Positions 3-27,003 of a stretch of DNA of 64,000 bases are shown here, piece after piece (position 1 is the stretch's first letter; every line of letters begins with the position of its first letter). This DNA is from Vicinamibacteria bacterium (GTDB taxonomy: Bacteria > Acidobacteriota > Vicinamibacteria > Fen-336). Below the pieces are notes generated by a model, which searched no databases, was not told the DNA's origin, and was given only the letters and a program-made list of their open reading frames with translations. The DNA lies in the NCBI GenBank assembly GCA_025994075.1, contig JAMQGV010000017.1:62001-126000 (forward strand). Reading direction: 5' to 3'. The translations under genes and the position numbers were made by a program.

Positions 3-1502
3 TCCTCGGCCTCGGGAGCGGACCTCGCCGCGATCGAAAACCACGGCAGCCGCCCCGAGGTGCTGGAGGCGCTCCAGCGCGGCGTCGGGACGGCGGTCCG
101 CACTTCGGCGACGGTCAACCGTGCGCTCCTCTACGCGGCGGTGCCGATCGACCACGACGGCCGCCGGCTCGGCGCCGCCCGCGTCGCGCTCTCGCTCGAG
201 GGGGTCGAGGCCGAGGCGCGGGCGCTGCAGCGGGCGATCCTGGCCGCCGCCGCGCTCGCCTTCGTGATCGCGGCGGCGCTCTCCGCGCTGCTCTCGGCGC
301 CGCTGGTCGGCCCGCTGCGCGAGATCATGCAGAAGGCCCGCGAGTTCGCGGCCGGCCACCTCGACGCCCGCATCGCCGTCGACCGCCGCGACGAGCTGGG
401 CGAGCTGGCCCGCATCCTCAATCTCTCCTCGGAGCGGCTGCGCGAGCGGCTGGAGGAGAACGCCCGCGACCGCGCCCGCACCGACGCGATCCTGTCGGCG
501 ATGGAGGACGGGGTGCTGGCCGTCGACGCCCGCGGCGTCGTCGTGGTCGCCAACCGCGCGCTGCAGGCTGGCCTCGGCCTCGAGTCGCCGCTCGGCCGCC
601 ACTACCTCGAGGTGATCCGCCAGCCCGAGGTCGGCGCGGTGATCGAGCACGTGCTGCGCAGCGGCGAGCGGCGCCAGGAGGAAGTCGAGATCCAGCGCCT
701 GCGCCGCGCCTACGCGCTGTCCGGGGTGTCGTTCCCCGGGCCCGCGGGCCAGGCGCCGGGCGCGGTGCTCACCTTCCACGACGTCACCGAGCGCCGCCGC
801 GTCGACCGCATCCGCCGCGACTTCGTGGCCAACGCCTCGCACGAGCTGCGCACGCCTCTCACCTCGATCCGCGGCTTCGTCGAGGCGCTGGAGGACGGCG
901 CGCTGCAGGACGAGCAGAACGCCGGCCGCTTCCTCGGCAAGATCCGCACCCACGCCGACCGGATGGCGACGCTGGTCGAGGACCTGCTCGAGCTGTCGCG
1001 GCTGGAGTCGGGCCAGCAGGCGCCGGTGCTCGACGAGGTGCCGTGCGCCGAGGTCGCCGACGACGTGGTCGCCTCCTTCGCCGCGCTGGCGGCGCGCAAG
1101 CCGGTTTCGCTGGTCCACGAGGATCGGGGCGCGCTGCCGGTGGTGACCGACGCCGACCGCCTGCGCCGCATCCTCGAGGCGCTGGTCGACAACGCGATCA
1201 AGTACACGCCCGAGAACGGCCACGTGATCGTGCGCACCCGGCCCGGCGAAGCGGGCGCCGCGGTCGTCGAGGTCGAGGACGACGGGCCGGGCATCCCGGC
1301 CGAGCACCTTCCGCGCATCTTCGAGCGCTTCTACCGGGTCGACAAGGCGCGCTCGCGCGAGCTCGGCGGCACCGGTCTCGGGCTGTCGATCGTCAAGCAC
1401 CTGGCCGAGGGCATGGGAGGGACCGTCTCCGTCGCCTCGGAGCCCGGCCGCGGCTCGCGGTTCTCGGTGACGCTGCCGGGGCGGGCCACGCCCCGCGCCT
1501 GA
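3..1502 (+). CDS. phoR: PhoR-type sensor histidine kinase, 5' end outside the window
   Basis: The frame is open to the left edge, so the N-terminus is missing. The visible part has the end of a periplasmic sensor region, one membrane helix (about bases 230-310), a HAMP linker, a PAS-like domain, a HisKA domain whose H-box reads ASHELRTP with the phospho-accepting His, and a HATPase_c domain with N-box (DNAIKYTP) and glycine boxes (DDGPGIP, GTGLGLSIV). This order is that of PhoR, which phosphorylates PhoB when phosphate is scarce. The Pst operon starting at 3,030 supports the role. The only response regulator in the window is phoB at 18,104-18,883, so the cognate regulator may be that one or may lie left of the window. 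Confidence 0.88.
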   Translation, partial: SSASGADLAAIENHGSRPEVLEALQRGVGTAVRTSATVNRALLYAAVPIDHDGRRLGAARVALSLEGVEAEARALQRAILAAAALAFVIAAALSALLSAPLVGPLREIMQKAREFAAGHLDARIAVDRRDELGELARILNLSSERLRERLEENARDRARTDAILSAMEDGVLAVDARGVVVVANRALQAGLGLESPLGRHYLEVIRQPEVGAVIEHVLRSGERRQEEVEIQRLRRAYALSGVSFPGPAGQAPGAVLTFHDVTERRRVDRIRRDFVANASHELRTPLTSIRGFVEALEDGALQDEQNAGRFLGKIRTHADRMATLVEDLLELSRLESGQQAPVLDEVPCAEVADDVVASFAALAARKPVSLVHEDRGALPVVTDADRLRRILEALVDNAIKYTPENGHVIVRTRPGEAGAAVVEVEDDGPGIPAEHLPRIFERFYRVDKARSRELGGTGLGLSIVKHLAEGMGGTVSVASEPGRGSRFSVTLPGRATPRA

Positions 1503-3029: not shown

Positions 3030-4133
3030 ATGACCCACCTCGAAGAGTCGCTCGAGCGCGACATCCAGCGCATCCGCCGCCAGGTCGTCGAGATGGGCGG
3101 CCTCGTCGAGCGCGCGCTGCGCGACGCCGTCAAGGCGCTGGTCGACGGCGACCGCCAGCTCGCCTACGCGGTGATCCTGCGCGACCAGTACATCGACGAG
3201 AAAGAGAAGGAGATCGACCGGCTCTGCCTCGAGTTCCTGGTCAAGCAGCAGCCGGTGGCGGGGCCGCTGCGCCTCGTCTACAGCACGATCAAGATCAACG
3301 TCGACCTCGAGCGGCTGGGCGACTACGCCGAGAGCATGGCGCGGCAGATGCTGCGCCTGCACGCGCTGCCCGACCGCAGCCAGGCGCCGCTCGACGGCGT
3401 GCTGGAGCTGGCCGCGCTGTCGATCCCGATGCTGCACGACGCGATCGAGGCGTTCCTGAAGCAGGACCCGGAGCTGGCCCACAAGACGATCGGCGTCGAG
3501 GCGACGGTCGACGTGCTGCAGAGCAAGCTGAACGCCGACCTGGTCAAGCTGTTCCACGAGCAGAAGCTGCCGCTCGACGCGCTCGACCCGCTGATGAACA
3601 TCGGCCGCCGCCTCGAGCGGGTCTCCGACCAGGCGCGGAACATCTGCATGGAAGTGCTCTACATGTGCACCGGGGAGTACACCAAGCACTCCGGCGCCGA
3701 GGCCTTCCGCGTGCTGTTCGTCGACGAGCACAACTCCTGCCGCAGCCAGATGGCGGAGGCCTTCGCCCACTCGCTGAACCAGCCCAAGTTCGTCTTCGGC
3801 AGCGCCGGCATCGAGCCGCGCGCGATCGACGCCACGACCCTCGCCTTCATGCGCGAGAAGGGCTTCGACCTGTCGCGCAAGACGCCCAAGGCGCTGTTCA
3901 ACGTGCCCTACCTCGATCACTACCAGGTGATCGTCTCGCTCTCGCCCGAGGTGGAGAAGGCGTTCCCGCAGAGCCCGCGCAAGATGGTCTACCTCGACTG
4001 GAGCGTGCCCAACCCGTCCGCCGTCCAGGGCACGCCGGAGCAGGTGCGGGCCGCGTACGAGTCCGCCTACCGCCACATCTCGACCCAGGTGCGCGACCTC
4101 GTCGAGGCGATCGTCGGCAACAAGATCGAGTGA
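3030..4133 (+). CDS. PhoU fused to an ArsC/LMW-phosphatase-like domain lacking the catalytic Cys
   Basis: 367 aa. Residues 1-215 are a PhoU domain made of two three-helix bundles with the metal-site-like sequences DLERLGDYAE and RRLERVSDQARN. PhoU restrains PhoR signalling through the Pst transporter. Residues 226-360 resemble low-molecular-weight tyrosine phosphatase/ArsC. The P-loop keeps HNSCRSQMAE, but the nucleophile expected as the first Cys of CX5R is Asp232 (GAC, 3,723-3,725). The usual general-acid motif (DPA) near the C-terminus reads NPS. This suggests a domain that may bind phosphate or arsenate but not act as a reductase or phosphatase. ATG 3,030 is preferred over TTG 2,955, which lies in the -35 element. 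It is the first gene of the Pst operon, 10 bases before pstS. Confidence 0.85.
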   Translation: MTHLEESLERDIQRIRRQVVEMGGLVERALRDAVKALVDGDRQLAYAVILRDQYIDEKEKEIDRLCLEFLVKQQPVAGPLRLVYSTIKINVDLERLGDYAESMARQMLRLHALPDRSQAPLDGVLELAALSIPMLHDAIEAFLKQDPELAHKTIGVEATVDVLQSKLNADLVKLFHEQKLPLDALDPLMNIGRRLERVSDQARNICMEVLYMCTGEYTKHSGAEAFRVLFVDEHNSCRSQMAEAFAHSLNQPKFVFGSAGIEPRAIDATTLAFMREKGFDLSRKTPKALFNVPYLDHYQVIVSLSPEVEKAFPQSPRKMVYLDWSVPNPSAVQGTPEQVRAAYESAYRHISTQVRDLVEAIVGNKIE

Positions 4134-4143: not shown

Positions 4144-5070
4144 ATGCCCTCCGCCCCGCAGTCCCGCCGCCGGGTCGGCCTGACCCTGGCCGCCGCGCTC
4201 TCGTTCGCCTGCGCGGGCGGCCGCGAGGCGTCGGGGCCGGCGACGGTGATCCAGAACAAGGGCTCCGACACGATGGTCAACGTGGCGCAGGCCTGGGCGG
4301 AGGAGTACGCGCTGGTCGCGCCGGACGTCAAGGTCGAGGTCTCCGGCGGCGGGTCAGGCGTCGGCATCGCGGCGCTGATCAAGGGCGCCGTCGACATCGC
4401 GAGCGCCAGCCGCAACATCAAGGACGAGGAGATCGAGCAGGTCCGCCTCAACACCGGCAAGGACCCGCGCGACTTCGTGGTCGGCTACGACGCGCTGGCC
4501 GTCTACGTCCACGAGGACAACCCGCTCACCCACCTCGACCGGGAGACGCTGGCCGGCATCTTCGGCGAGCACGGCACGATCGAGCGCTGGTCCGAGCTCG
4601 GCGTGCGCTTCCCGGGCGTCGAGGACGACCGCATCGTGCGGGTCAGCCGCCAGTCGAGCTCGGGCACGTTCGAGTTCTTCCGCTCCTGGGTCGTGGGCAA
4701 GAAGGACTTCAAGCTCGGCTCGCGCGACCTCAACGGCTCGAAGGAGGTCGTCGAGCTGGTCGGCCACACGCTGACGGCGATCGGCTTCTCGGGCATGGGC
4801 TACGCGACGCCGGCCGTCAAGATGCTCGGCCTGGCCGATGCCCCCGGCGCCGCGCCGGTGCCGCCGTCGCTCGACGCCGTGCTCGACGGCAGCTACCCGC
4901 TGGCCCGCTCGCTGCACCTCTACACGCTCGGCGAGCCGAAAGGCGCGACCCAGGCCTACCTCGACTGGATCCTCTCCGAGCCCGGCCAGCAGGTGGTCGC
5001 GCGCAGCGGCTACGTGCCGGTGCCGCCCTCCGCGCGCGCGGCGGCGGGCGCCGGCGCCGCGGCCCGATGA
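4144..5070 (+). CDS. pstS: Phosphate-binding lipoprotein PstS (first system)
   Basis: 308 aa periplasmic phosphate-binding protein of the PstSCAB transporter. The N-terminus has arginines, a hydrophobic stretch and a loose lipobox ending at Cys23 (SFAC), so it is probably a lipoprotein. The binding pocket motifs of the PstS family are visible: NKGSDTM near residue 40, the GGGSG loop near 65, and RQSSSGTFEFF near 170. It is distinct from the second pstS at 24,430-25,395, which has a cleavable signal and longer loops. It overlaps pstC by four bases (ATGA), which indicates translational coupling. Confidence 0.92.
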   Translation: MPSAPQSRRRVGLTLAAALSFACAGGREASGPATVIQNKGSDTMVNVAQAWAEEYALVAPDVKVEVSGGGSGVGIAALIKGAVDIASASRNIKDEEIEQVRLNTGKDPRDFVVGYDALAVYVHEDNPLTHLDRETLAGIFGEHGTIERWSELGVRFPGVEDDRIVRVSRQSSSGTFEFFRSWVVGKKDFKLGSRDLNGSKEVVELVGHTLTAIGFSGMGYATPAVKMLGLADAPGAAPVPPSLDAVLDGSYPLARSLHLYTLGEPKGATQAYLDWILSEPGQQVVARSGYVPVPPSARAAAGAGAAAR

Positions 5071-5990
5071 CCGCGCCTGCCCCGGCGCCCCGCCCGCAGC
5101 GCTCCCGCCTGGAGCGGCTGGGCGAGTCGCTGCTCGAGGGCCTGATCCGGCTCTCCGGCGTCAGCGCCATCGTCTTCGTGCTGGCCATCTTCTTCTTCGT
5201 GTTCCGCGAGGCGGCGCCAGTCGTGTTCAGCCGCAACTTCGACCTCTGGAAGTTCCTGTTCTCGATCGAGTGGTACCCGACCTCCGCCTCCAACGTGCGC
5301 TACGGCACCTTCGCGCTGACCGTCGGCAGCTTCGCGGTGACCGCGCTGGCGATGGCGATCGCGGTGCCGTTCGGGCTCGGCGCCGCGATCTACCTCTCCG
5401 AGTTCTGCGGCCGCCGGCTGCGCGAGACGCTGAAGATCGTGATCGAGCTGCTGTCGGCGATCCCCAGCGTCGTGTGGGGCTTCATCGCGCTCACCGTGAC
5501 CAGCAAGCTGGTGGTCGACGCGACCGGCGCGGCGGTCGGCGTCAACGTCCTGAACGGGGGCGTGGTGCTGGCGCTGATGAGCGTGCCGATCATCGTGTCG
5601 ATCGGCGAAGACGCGCTGAAGGCGGTGCCCGATTCCTACCGCGAGGCGGCCCTCGCGCTGGGCGCCACGCGCTGGCAGGTCGTCTACCGCGTGCTGCTGC
5701 CGGCGGCCCGCAACGGCCTGCTGGCCGCGGTGCTGCTCGGCGTCGGCCGCGCGGTCGGCGAGACGATGGCGGTGCTGATGGCGACCGGCCACGCGGTCCA
5801 CATCCCCGGCAGCCTGCTCGACTCGGTGCGCACGCTGACCGCCAACATCGCGGCCGAACTGGGCGAGGCCCCGGTCGGCTCCGACCACTACCGGGTGCTG
5901 TTCCTGACCGGGGTGCTGCTGTTCTGCATCACGTTCGCGGTCAACATCGTCGCCGACCTGGCGATCCGCGGCGTGCGGAGGCGCGGGTGA
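5067..5990 (+). CDS. pstC: Phosphate ABC transporter permease PstC (first system)
   Basis: 307 aa inner-membrane permease of normal length, with six predicted membrane helices. The binding-protein-dependent transport motif is present as EAALALGATRWQVVYRVLLP (about residues 191-210), the coupling helix that contacts the ATPase. It starts inside the stop of pstS (ATGA) and ends in GTGA with pstA, so pstS-C-A-B-B are tightly coupled. Unlike the second system's PstC it has no large periplasmic insert. Confidence 0.93.
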   Translation: MTAPAPAPRPQRSRLERLGESLLEGLIRLSGVSAIVFVLAIFFFVFREAAPVVFSRNFDLWKFLFSIEWYPTSASNVRYGTFALTVGSFAVTALAMAIAVPFGLGAAIYLSEFCGRRLRETLKIVIELLSAIPSVVWGFIALTVTSKLVVDATGAAVGVNVLNGGVVLALMSVPIIVSIGEDALKAVPDSYREAALALGATRWQVVYRVLLPAARNGLLAAVLLGVGRAVGETMAVLMATGHAVHIPGSLLDSVRTLTANIAAELGEAPVGSDHYRVLFLTGVLLFCITFAVNIVADLAIRGVRRRG

Positions 5991-6913
5991 GCGCCGCCGC
6001 GCCGCCGGCCACGAACCCGGCCGTGCCGCGCTTCGCGCGCACCGCCCACGTGGCGCGCAAGGAGCGCTCGGAGCGCGTCGCGCGCGTGGTGTTCGCGCTG
6101 ATGGCGGCGGCGATGGTGGTGCCGCTGGCGGCGATCCTCGGCTACCTGCTGTGGAAGGCGGCGCCCGCCCTGCGCCTCGAGTTCCTGCTCGACGTGCCGA
6201 AGAAGGGGATGACCGAAGGCGGCATCTGGCCCGCGTTCGTCGGCACCCTGTACCTGGTCGGGCTGTCGCTCGCGGTGTCGGCCCCGGTCGGCGTGCTGGC
6301 CGCGGTCTACCTCAACGAGTACTCGCGCGACAACGCCTTCACCCGCGCCATCAACCTGGCGGTGATCAACCTGGCCGGCGTGCCCAGCATCGTGCACGCG
6401 CTGTTCGGGCTGGGCGCCTTCGTCTACGCCGCGCAGTTCGGCTACTCGATCCTGTCCGCCTCGCTGACGCTCGCGATCATGACGCTGCCGGTGATCATCG
6501 CCTCCACGCGCGAGGCGCTGGCCTCGGTGCCGCACTCGTTCCGCGAGGCGTGCTGGAACGTCGGCGCCAGCCGCTGGCAGACGATCCAGGCGGTGGTCCT
6601 GCCCAACTCGATCAGCGGCATCCTGACCGGCCTGATCCTGCAGGTCAGCCGCGCGGCCGGGGAGACGGCGCCGATCATGTTCACGGGCGCCGTGTTCTAC
6701 AAGGCCGTGCAGCGCGGCGACCTGCTCCCGTACCGGCTCGACGAGCAGTGCATGGCGCTGTCGATGCACCTCTACACCGTGGCCACCCAGGTGCCGAACG
6801 TGCAGGAGGCGATCCCCTACGCGACCGCCGTCGTCCTGCTCGGCTCGGTGCTGCTGGTCAACGCGACGGCCGTCACCCTGCGGGTGTGGCTGCGGGGGCG
6901 CAAGCGGTGGTGA
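5987..6913 (+). CDS. pstA: Phosphate ABC transporter permease PstA (first system)
   Basis: 308 aa inner-membrane permease. A 35-residue basic cytoplasmic N-terminus precedes six predicted helices. The coupling-helix motif reads EACWNVGASRWQTIQAVVLP (about 185-204). The segment [16 protein letters not shown] is typical of PstA. The start is GTG at 5,987 in a GTGA overlap with pstC; an upstream extension of the same frame is only antisense-like readthrough in another gene. It pairs with PstC to form the membrane channel. Confidence 0.92.
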   Translation: MSAAAPPATNPAVPRFARTAHVARKERSERVARVVFALMAAAMVVPLAAILGYLLWKAAPALRLEFLLDVPKKGMTEGGIWPAFVGTLYLVGLSLAVSAPVGVLAAVYLNEYSRDNAFTRAINLAVINLAGVPSIVHALFGLGAFVYAAQFGYSILSASLTLAIMTLPVIIASTREALASVPHSFREACWNVGASRWQTIQAVVLPNSISGILTGLILQVSRAAGETAPIMFTGAVFYKAVQRGDLLPYRLDEQCMALSMHLYTVATQVPNVQEAIPYATAVVLLGSVLLVNATAVTLRVWLRGRKRW

Positions 6914-7707
6914 ACGGATCCCGCACGGCGCCGCCGCCGGCCGCGCCGGCCGCGCCCGCCCGCATCCAGGTCGCCGACCTGCGCCTGTCGTACGGCGACA
7001 AGGAGGTGATCCACGGCATCTCGTTCGACGTGCGCGCGAACGAGATCCTGGGCGTGATCGGCCCCGCCCAGTCGGGCAAGAGCTCGATGCTGCGGTGTCT
7101 CAACCGCACGATCGAGTTCGTGGCGGGCGCCCGCGTCGCGGGCACGGTGCACGTCGACGGCGAAGACGTCTCCCGCACGCGCGACGTGCACGCGCTGCGC
7201 CGCAAGATCGGCATGGTGGCGCCGCTGCCGGTCGGGCTGCCGCTCACCATCTACGACAACGTCGCGTTCGCGCCGCGCTGCGCCGGGCTGCGCGACCGCG
7301 CCGAGCTCGACGCGCTGGTCGAGCACTGCCTGCGCCAGGCGGCGCTGTGGGACGAGGTCAAGGACCGCCTCGGCTCGCTGGGCACCGCGCTCTCCGGCGG
7401 CCAGCAGCAGCGGCTCACGATCGCCCGCGCGCTGTCGCACCGGCCCGAGGTGCTGTGCCTCGACGAGTTCTCGATCGCCATCGACCCGGTGACGACGATG
7501 CGGATCGAGGACGTGCTGAAGGAGCTGCGCCGCGAGATCACGATCATCCTGGTCACCAACCTGACCCAGCAGGCGCGGCGGCTGGCCGACCGCACGATGT
7601 TCATGCTGAACGGCCGCATCGTCGAACTCGACCGCACCGACGTCGTGTTCTCGGAGCAGCCCGGCAGCCGCCAGACCTGGGACTACGTGAACGGCAACTT
7701 CGGATGA
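6910..7707 (+). CDS. pstB: PstB-like phosphate ABC ATPase, copy A: intact signature, altered switch His
   Basis: 265 aa, GTG start in a GTGA overlap with pstA. Family features: altered Walker A with the P-loop Lys and Ser kept (G51-PAQSG-K57-S58, normally GPSGCGKS), intact signature LSGGQ at 161-165, Walker B VLCLDE followed by FSIAIDP instead of PCSALDP. The switch (H-loop) His is replaced by Asn217 (VTN, normally VTH). Its own ATP site therefore looks weakened while its signature motif can serve a partner. It is followed directly by a second pstB that has the opposite pattern, so the two probably form a heterodimer. Confidence 0.88.
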   Translation: MNGSRTAPPPAAPAAPARIQVADLRLSYGDKEVIHGISFDVRANEILGVIGPAQSGKSSMLRCLNRTIEFVAGARVAGTVHVDGEDVSRTRDVHALRRKIGMVAPLPVGLPLTIYDNVAFAPRCAGLRDRAELDALVEHCLRQAALWDEVKDRLGSLGTALSGGQQQRLTIARALSHRPEVLCLDEFSIAIDPVTTMRIEDVLKELRREITIILVTNLTQQARRLADRTMFMLNGRIVELDRTDVVFSEQPGSRQTWDYVNGNFG

Positions 7708-8480
7708 CGGACGCGGCCCCGCTGGCGATCGAGACCCGGGGGCTCGACCTCTGGTACGGCGACTTCCAGGCGCTCTACGGCGTCGACGTGCGCGTCCGCG
7801 CGGGGATCATCACCTCGCTGATCGGGCCCAGCGGCTGCGGCAAGACCACGCTGCTGCGCTGTTTCAACCGCATCAACGAGCGCTACCCGAACGTGCGCAC
7901 GGGCGGCGTGATCCGGGTGCTGGGCGAGGACATCTACGACCCGTCGGTGTCGCTGATCGAGCTGCGCAAGGCGGTCGGCATGGTGTTCCAGCGGCCCAAC
8001 CCGCTGCCGATCTCGGTCTACGAGAACGTCGTCTTCGGCCTGCGCGTGCACACCCCGCGCGGGGAGCTGAAGCGCGCCGCGCTCGACGAGGCGGTCGAGA
8101 AGGCGCTGACCGAGGTCGGGCTGTGGAAGGACCTCAAGGACCGGCTCCACGACCGGGCCACGACGCTCCAGCTCGAGCAGCAGCAGAAGCTGTGCATCGC
8201 GCGCCTCCTGCCGCTGAAGCCGGACATCATCCTGATGGACGAGCCGTGCTCGGCGCTCGACGTCGAGGGCACGCGGGCGATCGAGGAGCTGATGTTCGAG
8301 CTCCGCGGCCGCTACACGATCGTGATCGTCACCCACAACATGGCCCAGGCCCGCCGCGCCAGCGACGAGTGCGTGTTCATGCTGCTCGGCAAGCTGATCG
8401 AGCACTCGCGCACCGCCGACCTGTTCCTGAGCCCGAAAGAAGCGCGCACGGCGGAGTACATCGAGGGCCGGTACGGATAG
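7704..8480 (+). CDS. pstB: PstB-like phosphate ABC ATPase, copy B: intact ATP site, degenerate signature
   Basis: 258 aa, overlapping copy A by ATGA. Walker A is canonical (G41-PSGCG-K47-T48), Walker B is canonical ([11 protein letters not shown]) and the switch His211 is present (VTHN). The ABC signature, however, reads LQLEQ at 155-159 instead of LSGGQ. A homodimer would have two defective composite sites. A dimer with copy A would have one canonical site (A/B/H of this protein with LSGGQ of copy A) and one degenerate site. The rest of the protein matches PstB, including the C-terminal IEGRYG. Last gene of the first Pst operon. Confidence 0.9.
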   Translation: MTDAAPLAIETRGLDLWYGDFQALYGVDVRVRAGIITSLIGPSGCGKTTLLRCFNRINERYPNVRTGGVIRVLGEDIYDPSVSLIELRKAVGMVFQRPNPLPISVYENVVFGLRVHTPRGELKRAALDEAVEKALTEVGLWKDLKDRLHDRATTLQLEQQQKLCIARLLPLKPDIILMDEPCSALDVEGTRAIEELMFELRGRYTIVIVTHNMAQARRASDECVFMLLGKLIEHSRTADLFLSPKEARTAEYIEGRYG

Positions 8481-8916: not shown

Positions 8917-9585
8917 ATGCAATCCCGGAAGCTGGGCAGGGGCGACATCCTGTGGAAGCAGGGTGAACCGGCGGACCGCATGGCGGTCGTCGACGCGGGC
9001 AAGGTCGGGGTCTGGACCGACCGCCGGCTGGTCGGCGTGATGTATCCCAAGATGGTGCTCGGCGAGGCCGCGCTGCTGGCCCTCGGCGAAGCCCGGTCGG
9101 TGAACCGCTCGGCGAGCGTGATCGCGATCGAGGACGGCACCGCGCTCACCGAGTACCCGGCGACGCTCGTGCGCGACGCCATGGGCGCCGGCGTGCCGCG
9201 CCTCGTGCTGCGCACGCTGGCCACCCAGGTCTGCCGCAACGCGCTGCTGATGCTGGCCGCCCACCCCAACGAACCCGCGCTGGAGCACGTCCTGCGCGGC
9301 CTGATCGCCGGCCAGATCGAAGGCGAGCGCCACCTGAAGGCGGTCAGCACCTGGGAGCGCTTCCTGGTCGTGTTCGAAGCGCTCTACCACCTGCGCGAGG
9401 GCCTCGACGCGATGCGCGGCGCGCTGGTCGAGCCGCGCCCCGACTTCGAGCTGACGCTCGTCCGCGCCTCGGAGCTATCGAAGGACCTCTTGAAGTCGAA
9501 GGACGCGCTGGCCGACGTGCTCGAGTTCCTCGACGCCGAACGCGAGCGCGCGGTCCTGACGGGCCTCAACCCCCCGGCCCGGTAG
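8917..9585 (+). CDS. Cyclic-nucleotide-binding-like domain protein without DNA-binding domain
   Basis: 222 aa. The first 105 residues look like a divergent CRP-type jelly roll (GDILWKQGEPADRMAVVDAG, GEAALLALGEARSVNRSASV); the phosphate-binding cassette is not well conserved, so nucleotide binding is uncertain. The remaining 115 residues are helical with no helix-turn-helix, so it is not an obvious transcription factor. The 3' end overlaps the decayed nucleotidyltransferase on the other strand by 20 bases. Function unknown. Confidence 0.6.
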   Translation: MQSRKLGRGDILWKQGEPADRMAVVDAGKVGVWTDRRLVGVMYPKMVLGEAALLALGEARSVNRSASVIAIEDGTALTEYPATLVRDAMGAGVPRLVLRTLATQVCRNALLMLAAHPNEPALEHVLRGLIAGQIEGERHLKAVSTWERFLVVFEALYHLREGLDAMRGALVEPRPDFELTLVRASELSKDLLKSKDALADVLEFLDAERERAVLTGLNPPAR

Positions 9586-17831: not shown

Positions 17832-18107
17832 CTAGCTGCTGCCGCTGCGGCGCGGCGCCTGGAACTTGGGGGCCGCGACGGCCGGGCCCCGCTTCCAGGG
17901 CTGCGGCGCGTTGCCGTGCTTCTTGTGGTCGGCGCGGCGCTCGGCCGCGGTCGGCTCGGCCTTCGGGGCCTCCAGCGGCGCCTCCGCCTCGGCCTTGGCG
18001 CGCGCCTCGCGCGCCTTCGCCTCGTCGGCGGCGAGGTGGCACTGCTTGTACTTCTTGCCGGAGCCGCAGTGGCAGGGTTCGTTGCGGCCGGGGGACTTGT
18101 CGCTCAA
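17832..18107 (-). CDS. Small SEC-C zinc-motif protein
   Basis: 91 aa. The N-terminus holds a SEC-C motif, GRNEPCHCGSGKKYKQCH, a zinc-binding module known from the SecA C-terminus. The rest is a charged, Ala/Lys/Glu-rich helix and a basic tail. The start is TTG 18,107, in a TTGA overlap with the phoB stop; a strong Shine-Dalgarno GGAGG sits seven bases before it. The role is unknown; translational coupling to phoB suggests it is made with the regulator. Confidence 0.75.
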   Translation of the reverse strand: MSDKSPGRNEPCHCGSGKKYKQCHLAADEAKAREARAKAEAEAPLEAPKAEPTAAERRADHKKHGNAPQPWKRGPAVAAPKFQAPRRSGSS

Positions 18108-18883
18108 GGGTGATCCTCCACCCTCATCATAGCGGCTGCGCCCGGGTCCTTGACGAAGCGGTAGCCGAGGCCGACGACCGTCTCCACGTGGTCGCGGGCG
18201 GGGCCCAGCTTCAGCCGCAGCCGGCGGATGTGGGCGTCGATGCTGCGCGTCTCCACGTCGGTCTCGAAGCCCCAGACGCGCTCCAGCAGCCGCTCCCGCG
18301 TCAGCACCCGGCCCGCGCGCTCGACGAGGTAGCGGAAGATCTCGAACTCCTTCTGGGTGAGCCGGATCTCCTGGCCGCGGTAGCGCACCGTGAAGGCCTC
18401 GAACTCGATCTCGAAGTTCTCGTCGCGGTACACCTGCGCCGCCTCGGCGCCGGGCTCGGAGCGCCGCAGCGCGACCCGGCAGCGGGCGGCCAGTTCCTTC
18501 AGCGAGAACGGCTTGACGACGTAGTCCTCGGCGCCCATCTCGAGCCCGAGCACGCGGTCGACCTCGTCGCCGCGGGCGGAGACGATGATGATCGGCACGT
18601 GGGCCGTCGAGGCCTGGCGCTTGATCAGCCGGCACACCTCGAGGCCGTCCATGCCCGGCAGGTTGAGGTCGAGCAGCACGAGGTCGGCCCCGCGGCGCGC
18701 GGCGTCCAGGCCCTCCTCGCCGGTGCGCGCCCACTTCACGTTCATGCCGGCGCGCTCGAGCTGGTAGCTGATCGCCTCGGCGATGTCGTGGTCGTCCTCG
18801 ATCAGCAGCACCCGCTTGCGGTGGTCGGCGACCGCGGTGCGCGGTGCCGCGGGGCTCCGCAGCTCGACGTGTCCGGCCTTCAC
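18104..18883 (-). CDS. phoB: PhoB-type response regulator
   Basis: 259 aa, GTG start. A 20-residue extension precedes the receiver domain (VLLIEDDHDIAEAI, phospho-acceptor Asp in LVLLDLNLPGMDG, Thr/Ser-equivalent IIVSARG, Lys in DYVVKPFS). A winged-helix OmpR/PhoB DNA-binding domain follows (LTQKEFEIFRYL, then DVETRSIDAHIRRLRLKL, GLGYRF). PhoB binds direct repeats with an 11-base period, which occur at several promoters here. It is translated after phoU with a GTGA overlap. No kinase gene is adjacent; phoR at 3-1,502 is the nearest. Confidence 0.92.
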   Translation of the reverse strand: MKAGHVELRSPAAPRTAVADHRKRVLLIEDDHDIAEAISYQLERAGMNVKWARTGEEGLDAARRGADLVLLDLNLPGMDGLEVCRLIKRQASTAHVPIIIVSARGDEVDRVLGLEMGAEDYVVKPFSLKELAARCRVALRRSEPGAEAAQVYRDENFEIEFEAFTVRYRGQEIRLTQKEFEIFRYLVERAGRVLTRERLLERVWGFETDVETRSIDAHIRRLRLKLGPARDHVETVVGLGYRFVKDPGAAAMMRVEDHP

Positions 18884-19560
18884 TGCGCGGTCTCCGAGCC
18901 GTTGCCGTGCCGCACGTCGCGGCCCTCGACCAGGAAGATGACGTCCTCCGCGACGTTGGTCGCGTGGTCGGCGATGCGCTCCAGGTTGCGGCTGATCAGG
19001 ATCAGGCCCAGCGCGCGCTCGATGGTGCCGGGGTCGGCCATCATGTGGGTCAGCAGCACGCGGAACACGTGGTCCTTGAGGTTGTCGACCTCGTCGTCGC
19101 GGAGCAGCACCTTGCGCGCGAGCTCCGCGTCGCGGCGCACGAAGGCGTCGAGCGCGTCGCGGGTCATGTGCAGCGCCAGCTCGGCCATGCGCGGGATGTC
19201 GATCAGCGGCCGCAGCGGCGGCTGCGCGATCACCTTCAGCGCGTTCTGGGCGATGTTGACGGCCTGGTCGCCGATCCGTTCGAGGTCGGCGTTGATCTTC
19301 ATCGCCGCGGTGATGAAGCGCAGGTCGGAGGCCATCGGCTGCTGCAGCGCCAGCAGCTTCAGGCAGCGGTCGTCGATCTCCACCTGCAGCCGGTTGATCT
19401 CGCCGTCGCCGCGGGCCACCCGCTCGGCGAGCTCCGGCCGCCGCTCCATCAGGGCCTGGATCGCCTCGGTCAGGCGCACCTCGACCTGGCCGCCCATGCC
19501 CAGCAGCCGCTGCTTGATCGCGCCCAGCCCCTCTTCGAAGTGATGCCGTTCCAATTTCAA
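18880..19560 (-). CDS. phoU: Phosphate signalling protein PhoU
   Basis: 226 aa, a standard two-bundle PhoU with both metal-binding helices (NADLERIGDQAVNIA and SRNLERIADHATNVA). PhoU couples Pst transporter state to PhoR and curbs the Pho response in high phosphate. Unlike the first system's PhoU it carries no extra domain. It lies between pstB and phoB, with a 55-base gap to pstB and a 4-base overlap with phoB. Confidence 0.93.
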   Translation of the reverse strand: MKLERHHFEEGLGAIKQRLLGMGGQVEVRLTEAIQALMERRPELAERVARGDGEINRLQVEIDDRCLKLLALQQPMASDLRFITAAMKINADLERIGDQAVNIAQNALKVIAQPPLRPLIDIPRMAELALHMTRDALDAFVRRDAELARKVLLRDDEVDNLKDHVFRVLLTHMMADPGTIERALGLILISRNLERIADHATNVAEDVIFLVEGRDVRHGNGSETAQ

Positions 19561-19615
19561 CGCTCTCCTGCCAGACCCCTGGATCCCGCCCCGTCCGCAG
19601 CCACCGCCCCCGGGA

Positions 19616-20452
<837 letters not shown>

Positions 20453-20462
20453 CTCCAAGCTC

Positions 20463-22097
20463 CTAGAAGGCCGACGTCTGGTACTTCCGGCGCAGCCGGT
20501 TGCGAACGACGATGGCCGTGAGGTTGAGGGCCACGATGATCAGCAGCAGGAAGATGGTCGTCGTGTAGACCATCGGCATCGCGGCCTCGACGTTGGGGCT
20601 CTGGAAGCCGACGTCGTAGATGTGGAACCCGAGGTGCATGAACTTGCGGTCGGGATGGAAGAAGGGGAAGAAGCCGTCGAGCGGCAGCTCGGGGGCCAGC
20701 TTGACGACGCCCGTGATCATCAGCGGCGCCACCTCGCCGGCGCCGCGCGCCATGGCCAGGATCAGGCCCGTCAGGATGCCCGGGGCGGCCGCCGGCAGCA
20801 CCACGTGCAGGATGGTCTGGAACTTGGTCGCGCCGGTCGCGATCGAGGCCTCGCGCATCGATCGCGGCACCGCGGCCAGCGCCTCCTCGGAGGCGACGAT
20901 CACCACCGGCACCGTCAGCAGCGCCAGGGTCAGGGAGGCCCAGAGGATGCCGCCGGTGCCGTAGGTCGGGGTCGGCAGCGCCTCGGGGAAGAACATGCGG
21001 TCGATGCCACCGCCGACGAAGTAGACGAAGAAGCCGAGGCCGAACACGCCGAACACGATCGAGGGCACGCCAGCCAGGTTGTTGACGGCGATGCGCACGA
21101 TCCGGACCAGCGGCCCCTGCTTCGCGTACTCGCGCAGGTAGAGCGCAGCCAGCACCCCGAACGGAACCGCCATCAGGCTCATGATGATGACCATCATCAC
21201 GGTGCCGAAGATGGCCGGGAAGATGCCGCCTTCGGTGTTCGACTCGCGCGGGTCGGCGCTCACGAACTCCCAGATGCGGCCGGCGTAGACGGCGAGCCGC
21301 CCGCCGAGCCCGAGCTGGTTGGCCGGGTAGATGCGGTAGATGTCCAGGGTGGACAGCTCCTTCTCGGTGCCGTCCGCGGCGCGGAAGGTCACGTAGGTCG
21401 TCGCCGCGGTCGCCAGCAGCCGGTCGAGCTCCTGCTGCTTGCCCCGGAAGCGCTCCTCCTGCGCGGCGACCGCGGCCGCCACGGCGGAGCGCTCGGCTTC
21501 GCGCTTCACGCCGTCCTGCTTCTCGCGGTACTCGATGCGCTTCAGCGCGAGGCGCTGCTGCTCGATGCGGTAGTTGATCTCGCCGATCTCGTGCTTCTCG
21601 ATCTGCTCGATGGCGGCACGGTCGTGCTCGGCCTTCGCGACGAGAGGCTGGAGCGCGGCCCACACCGCGTCGCCTTCGGCCAGCACCCGCTCCCCGTCCT
21701 TGAGCAAGACCGGGGCCCCGAGCAGCGGCCCGTACTCGCGGCGCTCGACGTAGAACGCGTCTGCCGGCTCGCGGCGCGAGGCGATCTCCTTCTCGTCGAT
21801 CCACTTGAAGTCGTAGCCGAGCAGGTCGCGGTTGCCGAGCTTGAGCTGGACGCGGTGCTCGCGCAGGTGATCGGGCGAGCCCGGGTTCGGGATCGGCTGG
21901 CGGCGGATCTGCTCGCCCAGCCACTTGCTGCCGTCCTTCAGCGTCAGCTCGACGAGCGCGCTGGGCCAGAAGAAGCCGAGGCCGTTCGTCAGCACGATCA
22001 CGATCAGGCCGGCGATCAGCAGCAGACAAGTGCCAAGCGCGCTGCCGGTGAACCACACCATCGGGTCGCCGCGGCGGACGGAGAGGGGCAGCTTCAT
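20463..22097 (-). CDS. pstA: Long-form phosphate permease PstA (second system)
   Basis: 544 aa, far above the 280-310 aa of ordinary PstA. One N-terminal helix (about 15-37) is followed by a periplasmic domain of about 230 residues, of which about 150-235 is a charged, coiled-coil-like stretch ([20 protein letters not shown]). The permease core begins near 280 and includes [17 protein letters not shown] and the coupling motif [20 protein letters not shown]. Long PstA and PstC pairs are known in gammaproteobacteria such as pseudomonads. It matches the long PstC encoded one base upstream. Confidence 0.92.
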
Positions 22098-22098
22098 G

Positions 22099-24333
22099 TC
22101 AGATCGCCCGGTAGCGCTCGCGCAGGCGCTGGCGGATCACCTCGGCGATGGTGTTGACCACGAAGGTCATCGCGAACAGCAGCGCGCCGGCCAGGAACAG
22201 CACGCGGTACAGCGTGCCGCCGTAGGGCGCCTCGGGGATCTCCACCGCGATGTTGGCGGAGAGCGTGCGCATGCCGTTGAAGATCGACCAGTCCAGCACC
22301 GGCGTGTTGCCGGTGGCCATCAGCACGATCATGGTCTCGCCCACCGCGCGGCCGAAGCCGATCATCACCGCGGAGAACACGCCCGGGCTGGCGGTCGGCA
22401 GCACGACGCGGGTCGCCGTCTGCCAGCGCGAGGCGCCGAGCGCCAGCGACGCGGCCGACAGCGAGGAGGGCACCGCGCTGAAGGCGTCCTCCGAGATCGT
22501 GAAGATGATCGGGATCACCGCGAACCCCATCGCCAGGCCGACCACCAGGCTGTTGCGCTGGTCGTAGGTGAGCGCGAGGTTCTCGCTGAGCCACAGCTTG
22601 AAGTCGGGTGGGAAGACGGTGGCTTCGACCCAGGGGCCGGCCTCGAGCGCTCCCAGGGCGCCGAGCGCCATCATGGGCACCAGCACGAACAGCTCCATCC
22701 CGGGCTTGAGCCGCCGCGAGAGGGCCTGGGGAAGGCGGTTCCAGACCAGGATGCCCGCAGTGCCGGACAACGGCAGGACGACCATCATCAGGATCACGCC
22801 CACGATGTGGCGCTCGACCATCGGCGCCAGCCACAGGCCCGCGACGAAGCCGATCACGACCGAAGGCAGCGCCGCCATGATCTCGACGGTGGGCTTGATC
22901 CGGCCGCGGATCGAGGGGTGCATGAACTGCGAGGTGTAGAGCGCGCCGCCGACCGCGATCGGGATCGCGAACAGCAGCGCGTACAGCGTCCCCTTGATGG
23001 TGCCGAACATCAGCGGCACCAGCGAGAACTTGGTCTCGAAGTCGTCGGTCGCGCCGGTCGACTGCCACACGTACTCGGGCGCGGCGTAGCCCTCGTACCA
23101 GACCTTGCCGAACAGCGACTTCCAGGTGATCTCCGGGTGCGGGTTGGAGATCGCGTAGCGGGCCAGCACGCCGCCCGGCTGGCTGACCAGCAGCCCGTCG
23201 TTCTTCGGCGTGATCAGCAGCAGCTCGCCGCCGGCGGCCGCGTCCGGCAGCCGCAGCAGCGTGCGCTCCGAGGTGCCGTGGTGGAGCACGACGCTGCCGT
23301 CGGCTCCGAGCGTCGCGAACGAGCGGTCACGGGTGGCCGCCGTGATCGCGGTGACGGGGGCGCCCTGGTTCTCGAAGCGGTGGGCGTTGACCAGCGTCCT
23401 GTCGGCGTCGTCGTCGCGCAGGCGGACCCGGAACCAGCCGCTCACCTCGCCCGCCTGGTTGCCGGCCAGGAACGTCGTCCCGCCCAGCAGCCACTCGATC
23501 GCCGTCACCGGGCTCGAGCCCACGGAGACCACGTCCGTGAGCCTCAGCTCGGGCTCGATCTCCCAGTGGTAGACGTTGCCCTTCTCGGTGCCGACCGCCA
23601 GCGCGTCGGGGCGGGCCAGGTCCAGGGTGGTGATCTTCTCGCCGTCGCGGGTGCGCAGCGTGTGCAGCGCCTCGGTCTCGTCTTCGGAGCGATGCCACAG
23701 CGCGATCTCGTCGTCCGCGAGCAGCGCGGCCACCGACTTGCGGCCGCCGTCGTCGCTGTAGCCGAGCTGCCGCACCGGGCGGCCCGCCGGATCGATCGCG
23801 ATCAGGCCGCGGTCGCGGACCTCGATCTCCAGGTCCTTCAGTTGCTGGGCGTCGTCGTACTGCGGGCGGAAGCGGACCTGGGCCATGGCCACGCGGCCGT
23901 CCGCGGTGCCCGCGGCGAGGAAGTCGCCCGTCAGCGAGCGCGAGGCCGCCGTGACGCCGGCGCCCGCGAGGCCCGGAAACGGCACGGTCAGCGCGAGCTT
24001 CCCGCCCTCGAGGCGGAAGAAGTGGACTTCCGCTTCCGGCGTCACGTCGTAGGCGTAGAGCTGGTACTCGTCCGTGCCCAGTACCAGCGGACGGACCACA
24101 TGACCGTCGGGGGTCACCATCGCGACCGTGCCCGTCGCCGTGCCCTGCGAAGAGCGGAACAGCGGCCAGGCCTCGGCCAGGATGAACAGCAGGATGCCGA
24201 GCACGCTGGCGACGATGCCGATGCCGCCGAGCGTGATGAAGAAGACGGCGAAGCGGTCGAGACGCTTGACCCGCTTGATGCGCTCGCCCTGGGCGGCGAT
24301 CAGCTCGCGGACGGTGAGGGTGTTGCTGGCCAT
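22099..24333 (-). CDS. pstC: Long-form phosphate permease PstC with periplasmic propeller-like domain
   Basis: 744 aa, more than twice the usual length. A membrane helix (about 28-52) leads into about 370 periplasmic residues with repeating beta-strand patterns and WD-like ends (ALLADDEIALWHRS, VTAIEWLLGGTTFLAGNQAGEVSGWF, ITAATRDRSFATLGADGSVVLHHG). This looks like a beta-propeller, by inference from the repeats. The C-terminal third is the permease, with the coupling motif AASLALGASRWQTATRVVLP. The domain may organise the transporter with the long PstA or sense a periplasmic partner. Confidence 0.9.
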   Translation of the reverse strand: MASNTLTVRELIAAQGERIKRVKRLDRFAVFFITLGGIGIVASVLGILLFILAEAWPLFRSSQGTATGTVAMVTPDGHVVRPLVLGTDEYQLYAYDVTPEAEVHFFRLEGGKLALTVPFPGLAGAGVTAASRSLTGDFLAAGTADGRVAMAQVRFRPQYDDAQQLKDLEIEVRDRGLIAIDPAGRPVRQLGYSDDGGRKSVAALLADDEIALWHRSEDETEALHTLRTRDGEKITTLDLARPDALAVGTEKGNVYHWEIEPELRLTDVVSVGSSPVTAIEWLLGGTTFLAGNQAGEVSGWFRVRLRDDDADRTLVNAHRFENQGAPVTAITAATRDRSFATLGADGSVVLHHGTSERTLLRLPDAAAGGELLLITPKNDGLLVSQPGGVLARYAISNPHPEITWKSLFGKVWYEGYAAPEYVWQSTGATDDFETKFSLVPLMFGTIKGTLYALLFAIPIAVGGALYTSQFMHPSIRGRIKPTVEIMAALPSVVIGFVAGLWLAPMVERHIVGVILMMVVLPLSGTAGILVWNRLPQALSRRLKPGMELFVLVPMMALGALGALEAGPWVEATVFPPDFKLWLSENLALTYDQRNSLVVGLAMGFAVIPIIFTISEDAFSAVPSSLSAASLALGASRWQTATRVVLPTASPGVFSAVMIGFGRAVGETMIVLMATGNTPVLDWSIFNGMRTLSANIAVEIPEAPYGGTLYRVLFLAGALLFAMTFVVNTIAEVIRQRLRERYRAI

Positions 24334-24374
24334 GGGCTTCGCTGTTCTTCTGTCTCGCGATTCGGGTCGAAAGG

Positions 24375-24415
24375 CGCGGGCCGGGGCGGTCTTCTCGAGG
24401 AGGCCCCGGCCCGCG
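24375..24415 (-). terminator. 13-bp perfect GC hairpin between pstS and pstC
   Basis: CGCGGGCCGGGGC (24,375-24,387) and its exact inverse (24,403-24,415) with a 15-base loop. On the transcribed strand it begins 14 bases after the pstS stop, within the 96-base gap before pstC. There is no T-tract. Such a hairpin after the binding-protein gene typically limits read-through or protects the upstream mRNA, so PstS can outnumber the permease. Confidence 0.65.
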
Positions 24416-24429
24416 GGAGGAGCAGCCGA

Positions 24430-25395
24430 CTACTCCAGCTTCGCCAGCTCCTCCTTGCAGATCGACGCGGGCAGCGGCAGGTAGCCGTCCTTGACGACGA
24501 CCTCCTGGCCTTCCTTCGAGAACATGAACTTCGCGAACTCCTTGACCAGCGGGTCGAGCGGCTTGCCGGGGGCGCGGTTCACGTAGATGTAGAGGAAGCG
24601 GTTGAGCGGGTACTTGCCGCTCTTGACGTCCTCGTACGAGCCGTTCGAGAACGCGCCGCCTTCGGCCTCGGCAAGGGCCACCAGCTTGACGCCGGAGGTG
24701 CGGTAGCCGATGCCGGAGTAGCCGATGCCGAAGCGGTCCTCGGTCACGCCCTGGACGACGGAAGCGGAACCCGGCTGCTCCTTCACCGTGTCCTTGTAGT
24801 CGCCGTTCTTGAGCGTGTGCTCCTTGAAGAAGCCGTAGGTGCCCGACGCCGAGTTGCGGCCGTAGAGGGAGATCGGGCGATTGGCCCAGTCACCGGTCAG
24901 GCCGAGCTGGCCCCAGGTCGTCACGTTGCCCTTGAAGCCGCGGCGGCGGCTCTTGCCGAACACGGCGTCGACCTGGGCCATGGTCAGCTTCTCGATCGGG
25001 TTGTCCTTGTTGACGTAGACCGCCAGCGCGTCGAAGCTGGTGCGGAGCTGGGTCGGCTTGTAGCCGTACTTCTGCTCGAACTGGTCGATCTCGGTGGCGC
25101 GCATCGTGCGCGACATCGGGCCGAACTGGGCGGTGCCCGCGATCAGCGCCGGCGGCGCCGTCGAGCTGCCCTTGCCCTCGACCTGGACGCGGACGTTCGG
25201 GTACATCTTGCGGAACGCCTCGGCCCACAGCGTCATCATGTTGTTCATGGTGTCGGAGCCGATGCTGTTGATGTTGCCCGACACGCCGCTGGTGCGCTGG
25301 TACGACGGGATCGCCGGGTCGACCTGGATCTGCTGGGCCTGCGCCGCGCCGGCCACCAGGGCCAGGGCCGCGCCGAACGCCGTCACGCGATTCAT
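24430..25395 (-). CDS. pstS: Phosphate-binding protein PstS (second system)
   Basis: 321 aa with a cleavable Sec signal (hydrophobic core then AGAAQAQQ). Phosphate-pocket motifs: INSIGSDTMNNM, the KGSSTAPPALIAG loop, GPMSRTM and YGRNSASGTYGFF. It resembles the PstS type that accompanies long PstC/PstA. ATG 25,395 is used, preceded by GGAGGAAGCG at Shine-Dalgarno distance; an in-frame upstream start at 25,437 would run into the 12-bp inverted repeat. The gene follows the porin and has its own 11-base-repeat region and hairpins on both sides. Confidence 0.93.
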   Translation of the reverse strand: MNRVTAFGAALALVAGAAQAQQIQVDPAIPSYQRTSGVSGNINSIGSDTMNNMMTLWAEAFRKMYPNVRVQVEGKGSSTAPPALIAGTAQFGPMSRTMRATEIDQFEQKYGYKPTQLRTSFDALAVYVNKDNPIEKLTMAQVDAVFGKSRRRGFKGNVTTWGQLGLTGDWANRPISLYGRNSASGTYGFFKEHTLKNGDYKDTVKEQPGSASVVQGVTEDRFGIGYSGIGYRTSGVKLVALAEAEGGAFSNGSYEDVKSGKYPLNRFLYIYVNRAPGKPLDPLVKEFAKFMFSKEGQEVVVKDGYLPLPASICKEELAKLE

Positions 25396-25422
25396 CTGCA
25401 CGCTTCCTCCACGATTCGCCTG

Positions 25423-25455
25423 TCTCACGGGGTTCACGCTAGCAACCCCGTGAGA
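25423..25455. repeat. 12-bp perfect inverted repeat in the pstS upstream region
   Basis: TCTCACGGGGTT (25,423-25,434) and AACCCCGTGAGA (25,444-25,455), loop of nine bases. It lies between the 11-base repeats and the pstS Shine-Dalgarno. It can act as a terminator after the porin, an mRNA-stabilising leader hairpin, or a dyad operator over the promoter; the loop contains GCTAGC, a possible -10 element. Confidence 0.7.
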
Positions 25456-25461
25456 ACGGGC

Positions 25462-25490
25462 TGTTATGACCGTGTTAATTCGGTGTTAAC
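25462..25490 (-). promoter_or_regulatory. PHO-box-like triple 11-bp repeat before pstS
   Basis: On the + strand TGTTA begins at 25,462, 25,473 and 25,484, an exact 11-base period; on the transcribed strand the units read TTAAC, TTAAC and ATAAC. The third unit overlaps the porin stop codon. The same unit type occurs in the porin box, consistent with one regulator, probably PhoB. Confidence 0.6.
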
Positions 25491-26896
25491 TAGAAGATGA
25501 TCTGGGCCTGGAGCCGCAGCTCCTTGTTCTTGGTGCCCTTGCCGGAGTTGGCGGCCTCGTCCTCGAGCTGGCCGAAGTCGGCCTGCAGCTTGAGGGCGTG
25601 GCGGGCGTAGTAGTAGCTGATCGCGCCGCGGATCTCCTTGCGCAGGTTGTCCTCGCGGGCGTCGGTCGGGTCGTACTGGCCGATGCGGGCCGCCACTTCC
25701 CACTTCTTGGCCTTGTCGAGCAGGTACGACGCCTGGGCGAAGAAGCCGTCGGAGTTGAACTTGGCGCCCGTCTCCGGCGTGCGCTCGCGCATGTAGTACT
25801 CGCCGGTCGCGTAGAAGCGCTTGTACTTGAAGATGGCGTCGAAGCCCCAGATCGTGTCCTTGAGGTCGTTCCCCGTGGTGGCGCCGTGGAAGTCGTTCTT
25901 CTCGAAGTTGGCGGCCACCGCGAAGATCGGGAAGTCGGTCGAGTCGAAGTCGGCCTCGGAGTACATGGCGCCCGAGATCCAGGCGCGCTGGTTGAGGGCC
26001 ACCCGGCCGGTCGGCTGCCACATCACGCGCGCGTTGAGCTGCAGGTTGCCGTTGTCGTTCGCGGAGCGGGTCAGGCCGTTGCCGTTGAAGACGCCGGCGC
26101 GGTACTCGATCTTGTTGTTGAGGCTGCCGAAGATCGCGACGCCGGTGTCGCGGCCGCGCGCGTACTGGTTCGAGACCTCGGCGCGGTCGACGAAGCTCTG
26201 GCTGCCCGAGGACGTCATCTCCTGGTGGCCGAACGGCACCTTGAACTGGCCGGCGATCACCTTGAACTTGCCCTTGCCCTTGGTGAAGTCGATCGCGATG
26301 TTGGCGTCCTCCAGGATGGCGCCGGCGTTGCTGCCCGTCACCGCGGGCCAGTTGGCCTGCAGCTCGTAGCTGATCCAGCTCTTGCCGAACGCCCATCCCT
26401 CGAACTTGGTCTTCACGCGGCGCAGGCGGAAGCTGGGCTTGGCGTCGCCGGCGGCATCGGTCCCGGACAGCCGGACCGAGTCGTCGGGCAGCTCCTCGGT
26501 GAAGCGGACCTGGATGCGGTTCGAGATCTCGAGATAGGCGTTGTCGGTCGTGATGCGCGTCTTGCCGTCGCGCCACTCGACCCGCTGGGTCGGCGACTTC
26601 GGCCGCTCCACGACTTCCTTGATCCCGTACTTGAAGAAGAACAGCTCGAGCGCCGTCTCGTTCTCGGCGACGACGGTCGCCCCGTCGGGACCGGCGCCCG
26701 GGCGCGTGATGGCGACGCCCATCTCGCCCGAGACCTTCCACGCCTCCCACGTCTTCTTGCTGTTGAAGACGTAGAAGCGGTCGTCCTTCTTCTCCTCGGC
26801 GTAGAACAGACCCTGCGCCCAGGCGGGAGCGGCGAAGACCGCGGCCAGGACCAGGAACGCGGCGGCCTGCAGGCCCCGCACGAACCCCTTGCGCAT
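25490..26896 (-). CDS. Phosphate-selective porin O/P (OprP) family outer-membrane protein
   Basis: 468 aa. A Sec signal (FLVLAAVFAAPAWAQ) precedes a beta-barrel sequence with alternating hydrophobic residues, ending in the aromatic terminal strand QAQIIF. Segments such as FRLRRVKTKFEGWAFGKSWISYEL and GQFKVPFGHQEMTSS fit the OprO/OprP family, which brings phosphate or polyphosphate through the outer membrane. ATG 26,896 has AGGAGGACA just upstream. It has a four-unit PhoB-like box and precedes pstS. The ligand is inferred from context. Confidence 0.88.
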   Translation of the reverse strand: MRKGFVRGLQAAAFLVLAAVFAAPAWAQGLFYAEEKKDDRFYVFNSKKTWEAWKVSGEMGVAITRPGAGPDGATVVAENETALELFFFKYGIKEVVERPKSPTQRVEWRDGKTRITTDNAYLEISNRIQVRFTEELPDDSVRLSGTDAAGDAKPSFRLRRVKTKFEGWAFGKSWISYELQANWPAVTGSNAGAILEDANIAIDFTKGKGKFKVIAGQFKVPFGHQEMTSSGSQSFVDRAEVSNQYARGRDTGVAIFGSLNNKIEYRAGVFNGNGLTRSANDNGNLQLNARVMWQPTGRVALNQRAWISGAMYSEADFDSTDFPIFAVAANFEKNDFHGATTGNDLKDTIWGFDAIFKYKRFYATGEYYMRERTPETGAKFNSDGFFAQASYLLDKAKKWEVAARIGQYDPTDAREDNLRKEIRGAISYYYARHALKLQADFGQLEDEAANSGKGTKNKELRLQAQIIF

Positions 26897-26948
26897 CGAA
26901 GTGTCCTCCTTGGACGGCTGTGGCGTGGACGAACCCACAGGCGTGCGC

Positions 26949-27003
26949 AAGCTAGGCGGTGCCGGTGACGGCGCCGTGACGCATGCGTGAACATCGTGTT
27001 AAC
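26949..27003 (-). promoter_or_regulatory. Porin promoter with four 11-bp PHO-box-like units
   Basis: On the + strand GTGAC, GTGAC, GTGAA and GTTAA begin at 26,965, 26,976, 26,987 and 26,998. On the transcribed strand they read TTAAC, TTCAC, GTCAC, GTCAC toward the gene. Ten bases after the last GTCAC is TAGCTT (26,949-26,954), a possible -10, the same spacing as between PHO box and -10 in E. coli pstS. This is the best E. coli-like box in the window. Confidence 0.7.

Follow-up and report, generated by a model that had tools for sequence, protein, structure and literature searches.

We analysed a 64,000-nucleotide stretch of the genome of a Vicinamibacteria bacterium (GenBank assembly GCA_025994075.1, contig JAMQGV010000017.1, positions 62,001 to 126,000; hereafter the window) and find that it carries, in addition to a canonical phosphate transporter (Pst) cluster, a second pst operon headed by an unusual PhoU. 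In this protein PhoU is fused to a domain with the fold of the arsenate reductase ArsC and the low-molecular-weight (LMW) phosphatases, the catalytic cysteine of that domain is replaced by an aspartate (Asp232), and the operon ends in two adjacent PstB genes that have lost complementary ATPase motifs. We propose, with a probability of roughly 45%, that the Asp232 PhoU may be the dedicated regulator of this second, asymmetric Pst and that its C-terminal domain would act as a dead docking or allosteric module. The fusion is laid out as follows.

3030..4133, forward strand: PhoU-pseudo-ArsC fusion, 367 amino acids (aa), ATG start; homologues align from this ATG
3051..3677, forward strand: PhoU region (TIGR02135), residues 8-216
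3681..3698, forward strand: interdomain linker, residues 218-223, with a predicted local distance difference test score (pLDDT) below 50; relative domain placement not predicted by AlphaFold2 (AF2)
3711..4100, forward strand: LMWPc/ArsC-like pseudo-enzyme domain, residues 228-357
3723..3746, forward strand: P-loop D232-E-H-N235-S-C-R238-S239, in which Asp232 replaces the catalytic Cys
4011..4013, forward strand: acid-loop position N328, an Asp in most relatives of the same class (class 1, below)

The frame at 3030-4133 (forward strand) has no stops in its 367-aa translation, and the same mechanical open reading frame has an upstream TTG at 2955. A preliminary description of this DNA, made from its letters, had named the protein a PhoU fused to an ArsC/LMW-phosphatase domain, and this identification is borne out by profile searches and structure prediction alike. 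Pfam matches the fusion to PhoU (6.9e-38) and LMWPc (1.4e-10; 42 bits against a cut-off of 23.2), and the curated PhoU model TIGR02135 is passed with 162.3 bits (cut-off 130.25). The ArsC model TIGR02691 gives 69.4 bits, short of its cut-off of 174.3, and every NCBIfam ArsC cut-off lies far above the score. In the AF2 model, built with 22 homologues, mean pLDDT is 89 and linker 218-223 is disordered. Foldseek places the PhoU part closest to 1t72 (template modelling score, TMt, 0.95) and the C-terminal part closest to Bacillus subtilis ArsC, 1jl3 (TMt 0.87), so that its nearest solved folds are ArsC. Residues 228-243 of the fusion read VLFVDEHNSCRSQMAE, and D232-EHNSC-R238 puts an Asp at the exact Cys position of the CX5R motif, as the preliminary description had assigned it. 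Where LMW protein phosphatases have the hallmark CX5R motif and a general-acid Asp, the window protein has D232 and N328.

The aspartate is a property of a whole lineage. Close relatives were collected by a pattern-based scan of 84,980 species genomes, and further fusions were added by hidden Markov model searches of 396 Acidobacteriota, 338 Verrucomicrobiota and 168 Fibrobacterota genomes; beyond those three phyla the sample is the one pattern-based scan, and most of the genomes are metagenome-assembled. The scan gave 21 fusions, from Acidobacteriota, Verrucomicrobiota, Lentisphaerota and Fibrobacterota. The full Asp-clade set counts 48 sequences, including a few near-duplicates, in two related classes of one lineage: class 1, the type found in the window (37 sequences), and class 2 (11 sequences, L033-L043), whose compared members are about 32-39% identical to the window protein. 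Tabulating the nucleophile position, as the preliminary description had suggested, we find Asp in 46 of the 48, Glu in one (L103), Ser in one (L042) and Cys in none. Because 46 of 48 fusions share it, Asp232 is neither an error nor chance; the 46 include proteins from the single-contig genomes G125 and G156, and both a sequencing error and a chimeric metagenome assembly are rejected as its source.

Besides the aspartate, the Asp clade retains N235, S239, A242, the SAG motif and W324, the last being invariant and specific to the clade, but the sites of Cys82, Cys89 and the acid Asp have drifted. The two ArsC cysteines Cys82 and Cys89 are absent from all 40 Asp-clade rows tabulated, with Ser/Ala/Asp/Glu and Phe/Leu in their place. 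Since both the nucleophile and the redox cysteines are gone, ArsC or LMW-phosphatase catalysis is very unlikely as the conserved role, and the sequences support the earlier idea of a catalytically dead fold. The acid-loop Asp is present in 22 of 29 class-1 rows. The preliminary description had noted that the acid loop DPA reads NPS; this is true of the window protein (N328) but is a private change, as homologue L003, 97% identical to it, has ADPS.

The preliminary description had also argued that the P-loop is kept, so that an oxyanion site is likely, and had proposed that the dead P-loop binds cytoplasmic phosphate or arsenate and informs PhoU. The P-loop Arg, which grips the oxyanion in active enzymes, is indeed kept in the window protein (Arg238) and in 26 of 37 class-1 members, N235 and S239 are mostly kept, and most class-1 members have the acid Asp. 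However, the Arg is lost from the remaining 11 class-1 and from all 11 class-2 proteins, which belong to the same lineage and have the same operon, while the Asp stays. Oxyanion binding is therefore not the conserved function, and oxyanion sensing cannot easily be a role shared by all members, though binding could persist in the Arg-bearing subset, the window protein included. An Asp next to a protonated oxyanion is conceivable in principle, as phosphate-binding PstS proteins use one; against this, a carboxylate within the anion hole would be expected to repel a dianion. PhoU paralogues of Mycobacterium smegmatis have been proposed as intracellular phosphate sensors (PMC12301784), which favours a sensing role, yet PhoU proteins that lack the domain already function in Pho control. 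On balance we consider an oxyanion sensor somewhat unlikely, and we favour a docking module because it fits all members of the clade whereas sensing fits only those with the Arg.

The same residue counts bear on a second possibility, that Asp232 is a new functional carboxylate, either an aspartyl-phosphate acceptor or a metal ligand, as in receiver and HAD proteins. A near-invariant acidic residue (46 Asp and 1 Glu of 48) in an otherwise drifting loop would suit such a role, but there is no conserved second acidic pair or Lys of the kind that marks a Mg-dependent phospho-Asp site, and L042 has Ser. We regard this explanation as distinctly unlikely.

In the window the gene order is PhoU-pseudoArsC, PstS, PstC, PstA, PstBa, PstBb, with a 10-nucleotide (nt) gap after the fusion and 4-nt overlaps thereafter.

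4144..5070, forward strand: PstS (TIGR02136, 213.7 bits, above cut-off); nearest solved structure Pseudomonas aeruginosa PstS
5067..5990, forward strand: PstC, 4-nt overlap with pstS; 272.4 bits, above cut-off
5987..6913, forward strand: PstA, 4-nt overlap with pstC; 267.2 bits, above cut-off
6910..7707, forward strand: PstBa; Walker A, Walker B and LSGGQ intact, Q-loop Gln changed to Pro (7222-7224), H-loop His changed to Asn (7558-7560)
7704..8480, forward strand: PstBb; Walker A, Walker B, Q-loop and H-loop intact, LSGGQ changed to LQLEQ (8166-8180)

Phosphate is the likely substrate of this transporter, because its PstS is nearest to that of P. aeruginosa and passes the PstS-family cut-off. 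On the PstB equivalog model TIGR00972 (cut-off 343.2) PstBa scores 274.9 and PstBb 320.2, both below, and the canonical PstB elsewhere in the window scores 408.9, above it. ABC ATPases build each composite ATP site from the Walker, Q-loop and H-loop residues of one subunit and the signature of the other. For the window pair we predict one consensus site (Walker, Q-loop and H-loop of PstBb with the signature of PstBa) and one dead site, and adjacency together with motif complementarity points to a PstBa/PstBb heterodimer. In its own right, this adjacent pair at 6910-8480 with complementary motif loss is arguably as interesting as the fusion.

PstS, PstC, PstA, PstBa and PstBb are present at every Asp fusion with enough contig, with the decayed locus of genome G467 as the sole exception; class-2 fusions mostly have PstS on one side and PstC on the other. 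In all complete pairs PstBa is without the Q-loop Gln and the H-loop His, and PstBb is without LSGGQ (LQLEQ, LSLEE or similar). At the exceptional locus (L142, on contig C41 of G467) a truncated Asp-type fusion lies beside the last third of PstBb, and PstS, PstC, PstA and PstBa are missing; this operon is decayed or misassembled. Among the 396 Acidobacteriota genomes, 20 have an Asp fusion and 40 have PstBa, which occurs in 17 of the 20 fusion genomes and in 23 of the 376 others (Fisher p 3e-16). In the three fusion genomes without PstBa the contigs end in or before pstBa, and in at least one of the 23 fusion-negative PstBa genomes (G030) the fusion is cut by a contig end. Plain PhoU is also found in 16 of the 19 genomes behind the first scan, and since these and the window hold both forms, the fusion is a specialised paralogue of ordinary PhoU. 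Because the domain is confined to one special, asymmetric variant of Pst, the data do not support the suggestion of the preliminary description that it supplies a missing ligand-binding part for Pho signalling as a whole. A second phosphate-uptake operon with a fused PhoU and a lopsided PstB pair, present in several phyla, suggests a possible separate way of regulating phosphate uptake.

PhoU-ArsC fusions with an intact CX5R motif also exist. We find five (L044 and L107-L110), with the same domain order as the Asp fusions. Their pst operons have one canonical PstB, and in four of the five pstS is preceded by an ArsR-ArsC gene (HTH_5 plus LMWPc in the three of these four on which Pfam was run). 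In a maximum-likelihood tree of ArsC domains, all Asp domains group together with 100/100 support and no Cys-bearing ArsC joins them; the Cys fusions fall in two or three places among the Cys-bearing ArsC. A tree of the PhoU parts likewise holds the Asp fusions together at 100/100, apart from the Cys fusions, and the PhoU-only row from the decayed G467 locus (L106) falls inside the Asp-fusion group. The Asp domains have one origin, and by both trees the Cys fusions are of separate origin or origins; descent of the Asp fusions from these Cys fusions is not supported. Cys homologues, which the preliminary description would have taken as a sign of a sequence error here, thus do exist, but as a separate lineage that gives no pointer to an error. 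The loci of the five intact-Cys fusions (L065, L135, L136, L137 and L138) look like phosphate uptake operons that are arsenate-aware.

These comparisons bear on whether the Asp domain could still be an active arsenate reductase or phosphatase with an unusual nucleophile. The fold is retained, but all three catalytic ArsC cysteines are missing, the Arg is lost in many members, and we saw no ArsC-type neighbour of the Asp fusions, as against an ArsR-ArsC gene at four of five Cys fusions. We consider an active enzyme extremely improbable, and an arsenic operon is rejected for the Asp fusions as well.

Based on these data, we propose that the ArsC fold may have lost its catalytic and redox cysteines and been kept as a non-catalytic docking or allosteric module. 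Structurally, Asp232 would most likely serve as a permanent, unreactive negative charge in place of the P-loop Cys thiolate, with the loop and helix supported by N235 and S239 capping it; the retention of those two residues is what suggests a thiolate stand-in. The P-loop could in this way stay folded without nucleophilic or redox chemistry and present a protein-binding surface. The PhoU of E. coli makes contact with both PstB and PhoR, and it is the conformation of PstB that sets the signal (PMC5775613). By docking on PstB or PhoR, the pseudo-ArsC domain might help PhoU to recognise the PstBa/PstBb heterodimer or a partner kinase and might pass on the state of the single working ATP site.

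Three observations weigh against a docking module of this kind. AF2 leaves the placement of the two domains unfixed (predicted template modelling score 0.59). Some asymmetric PstB pairs stand beside an unfused PhoU or have no PhoU in their neighbourhood (L123-L130, L132-L134), so the pseudo-ArsC domain is not needed for such a pair. Finally, within one gene the C-terminal domain usually evolves somewhat faster than the PhoU part, which fits looser constraint. PstB asymmetry reaches beyond the fusion and probably predates it, and the fusion is rejected as its cause given the pairs with unfused PhoU, including the divergent L132-L134. No free-standing pseudo-ArsC was found in G062, G270 and G235, three genomes with asymmetric PstB and unfused PhoU, where only Cys-type matches appeared.

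The faster evolution of the domain, its lost catalytic residues and the decayed G467 locus would also suit an evolutionary relic, that is a decaying passenger. However, the frame is open in all Asp-fusion copies over several phyla except G467, Asp232, A242 and W324 are held, and pairwise ratios of nonsynonymous to synonymous substitution for the domain are well below 1 (0.04-0.44 across 13 pairs, of which L108/L109 is a Cys pair). The domain is maintained by purifying selection, under looser constraint, and we think a relic very unlikely.

The proposed docking module has partial parallels in known systems. Inactive D2 domains of some receptor tyrosine phosphatases are C-to-D pseudophosphatases, and they too are dead phosphatase folds with an acidic residue for the nucleophile on a signalling protein; they differ in being eukaryotic and of the classical protein tyrosine phosphatase superfamily. 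Heterodimeric ABC exporters pair one consensus with one degenerate composite ATP site; the window system is predicted to have the same asymmetry, but in a Pst-family type-I importer. With PhoU (TIGR02135), the negative regulator of Pst/PhoR, the fusion shares the two-repeat helical fold, the pst operon and an above-cut-off score; it differs by its ArsC-fold domain and is a paralogue of ordinary PhoU in most of these genomes. With thioredoxin-coupled ArsC and LMW phosphatases (TIGR02691, PF01451) it shares the fold, the N..S skeleton of the P-loop and the SAG motif, but it has Asp for Cys10, no Cys82 or Cys89, often no Arg and a score below the equivalog cut-off. The asymmetric PstB pair and the dead catalytic residues set the Asp fusions apart from the intact-Cys fusions. 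Firmicutes such as Enterococcus faecalis also have two adjacent pstB genes, PstB1/PstB2 (PMC12096839), whereas the window's pair loses motifs in a complementary way. In the open literature, which makes for weak evidence, we found no papers on PhoU with an LMW phosphotyrosine phosphatase, a fused PhoU domain or a degenerate heterodimeric PstB.

Whether Pst/PhoU reports phosphate through transporter conformation, as in E. coli (PMC5775613), or through direct sensing by PhoU, as in mycobacteria (PMC12301784), is an argued point. A PhoU with a fixed extra domain and a PstB split with complementary defects offer a natural separation of the steps, each of them testable. The ArsC fold also appears to have been turned into a pseudo-enzyme here, one that automatic annotation could easily label as an arsenate reductase or phosphatase in error. 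A bolder and, in our view, unlikely extension is that the operon is a Pst transporter turned receptor, in which a PstBa/PstBb heterodimer with one dead ATP site switches slowly or holds its state. The pseudo-ArsC domain of its own PhoU would sense this state, perhaps along with phosphate or arsenate in the cytoplasm, and would set a Pho output distinct from that of the cell's canonical Pst/PhoU.

Other genes of the window include a kinase and the second Pst system.

60..1502, forward strand: PhoR/PnpS-like histidine kinase (HAMP, PAS, HisKA, HATPase), upstream of the fusion
18104..26950, reverse strand: second, canonical Pho/Pst cluster with PhoB, unfused PhoU, one canonical PstB, PstA, PstC, PstS and a phosphate-selective porin

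The kinase is the likely signalling partner of the fusion. Directly before the fusion, at 1537-2925 (forward strand), lies a persulfide-dioxygenase-like gene with a metallo-beta-lactamase and two rhodanese domains, which among the first 21 loci is found only in L003 and L004. Downstream of the operon are a cyclic-nucleotide-binding-domain protein of no NCBIfam family (8917-9585, forward strand) and two overlapping short frames (9928-10426, reverse strand) that look like one nucleotidyltransferase-type protein split by a frameshift, neither piece having a Pfam match. Between the two Pst systems, a polyphosphate cluster at 10628-15816 encodes polyphosphate kinase, a PPX/GppA-like phosphatase, a CHAD domain and a SixA-like phosphatase, PPX and SixA being named from sequence only. 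In the canonical cluster at 18104-26950, PstA and PstC are long, at 544 and 744 aa.
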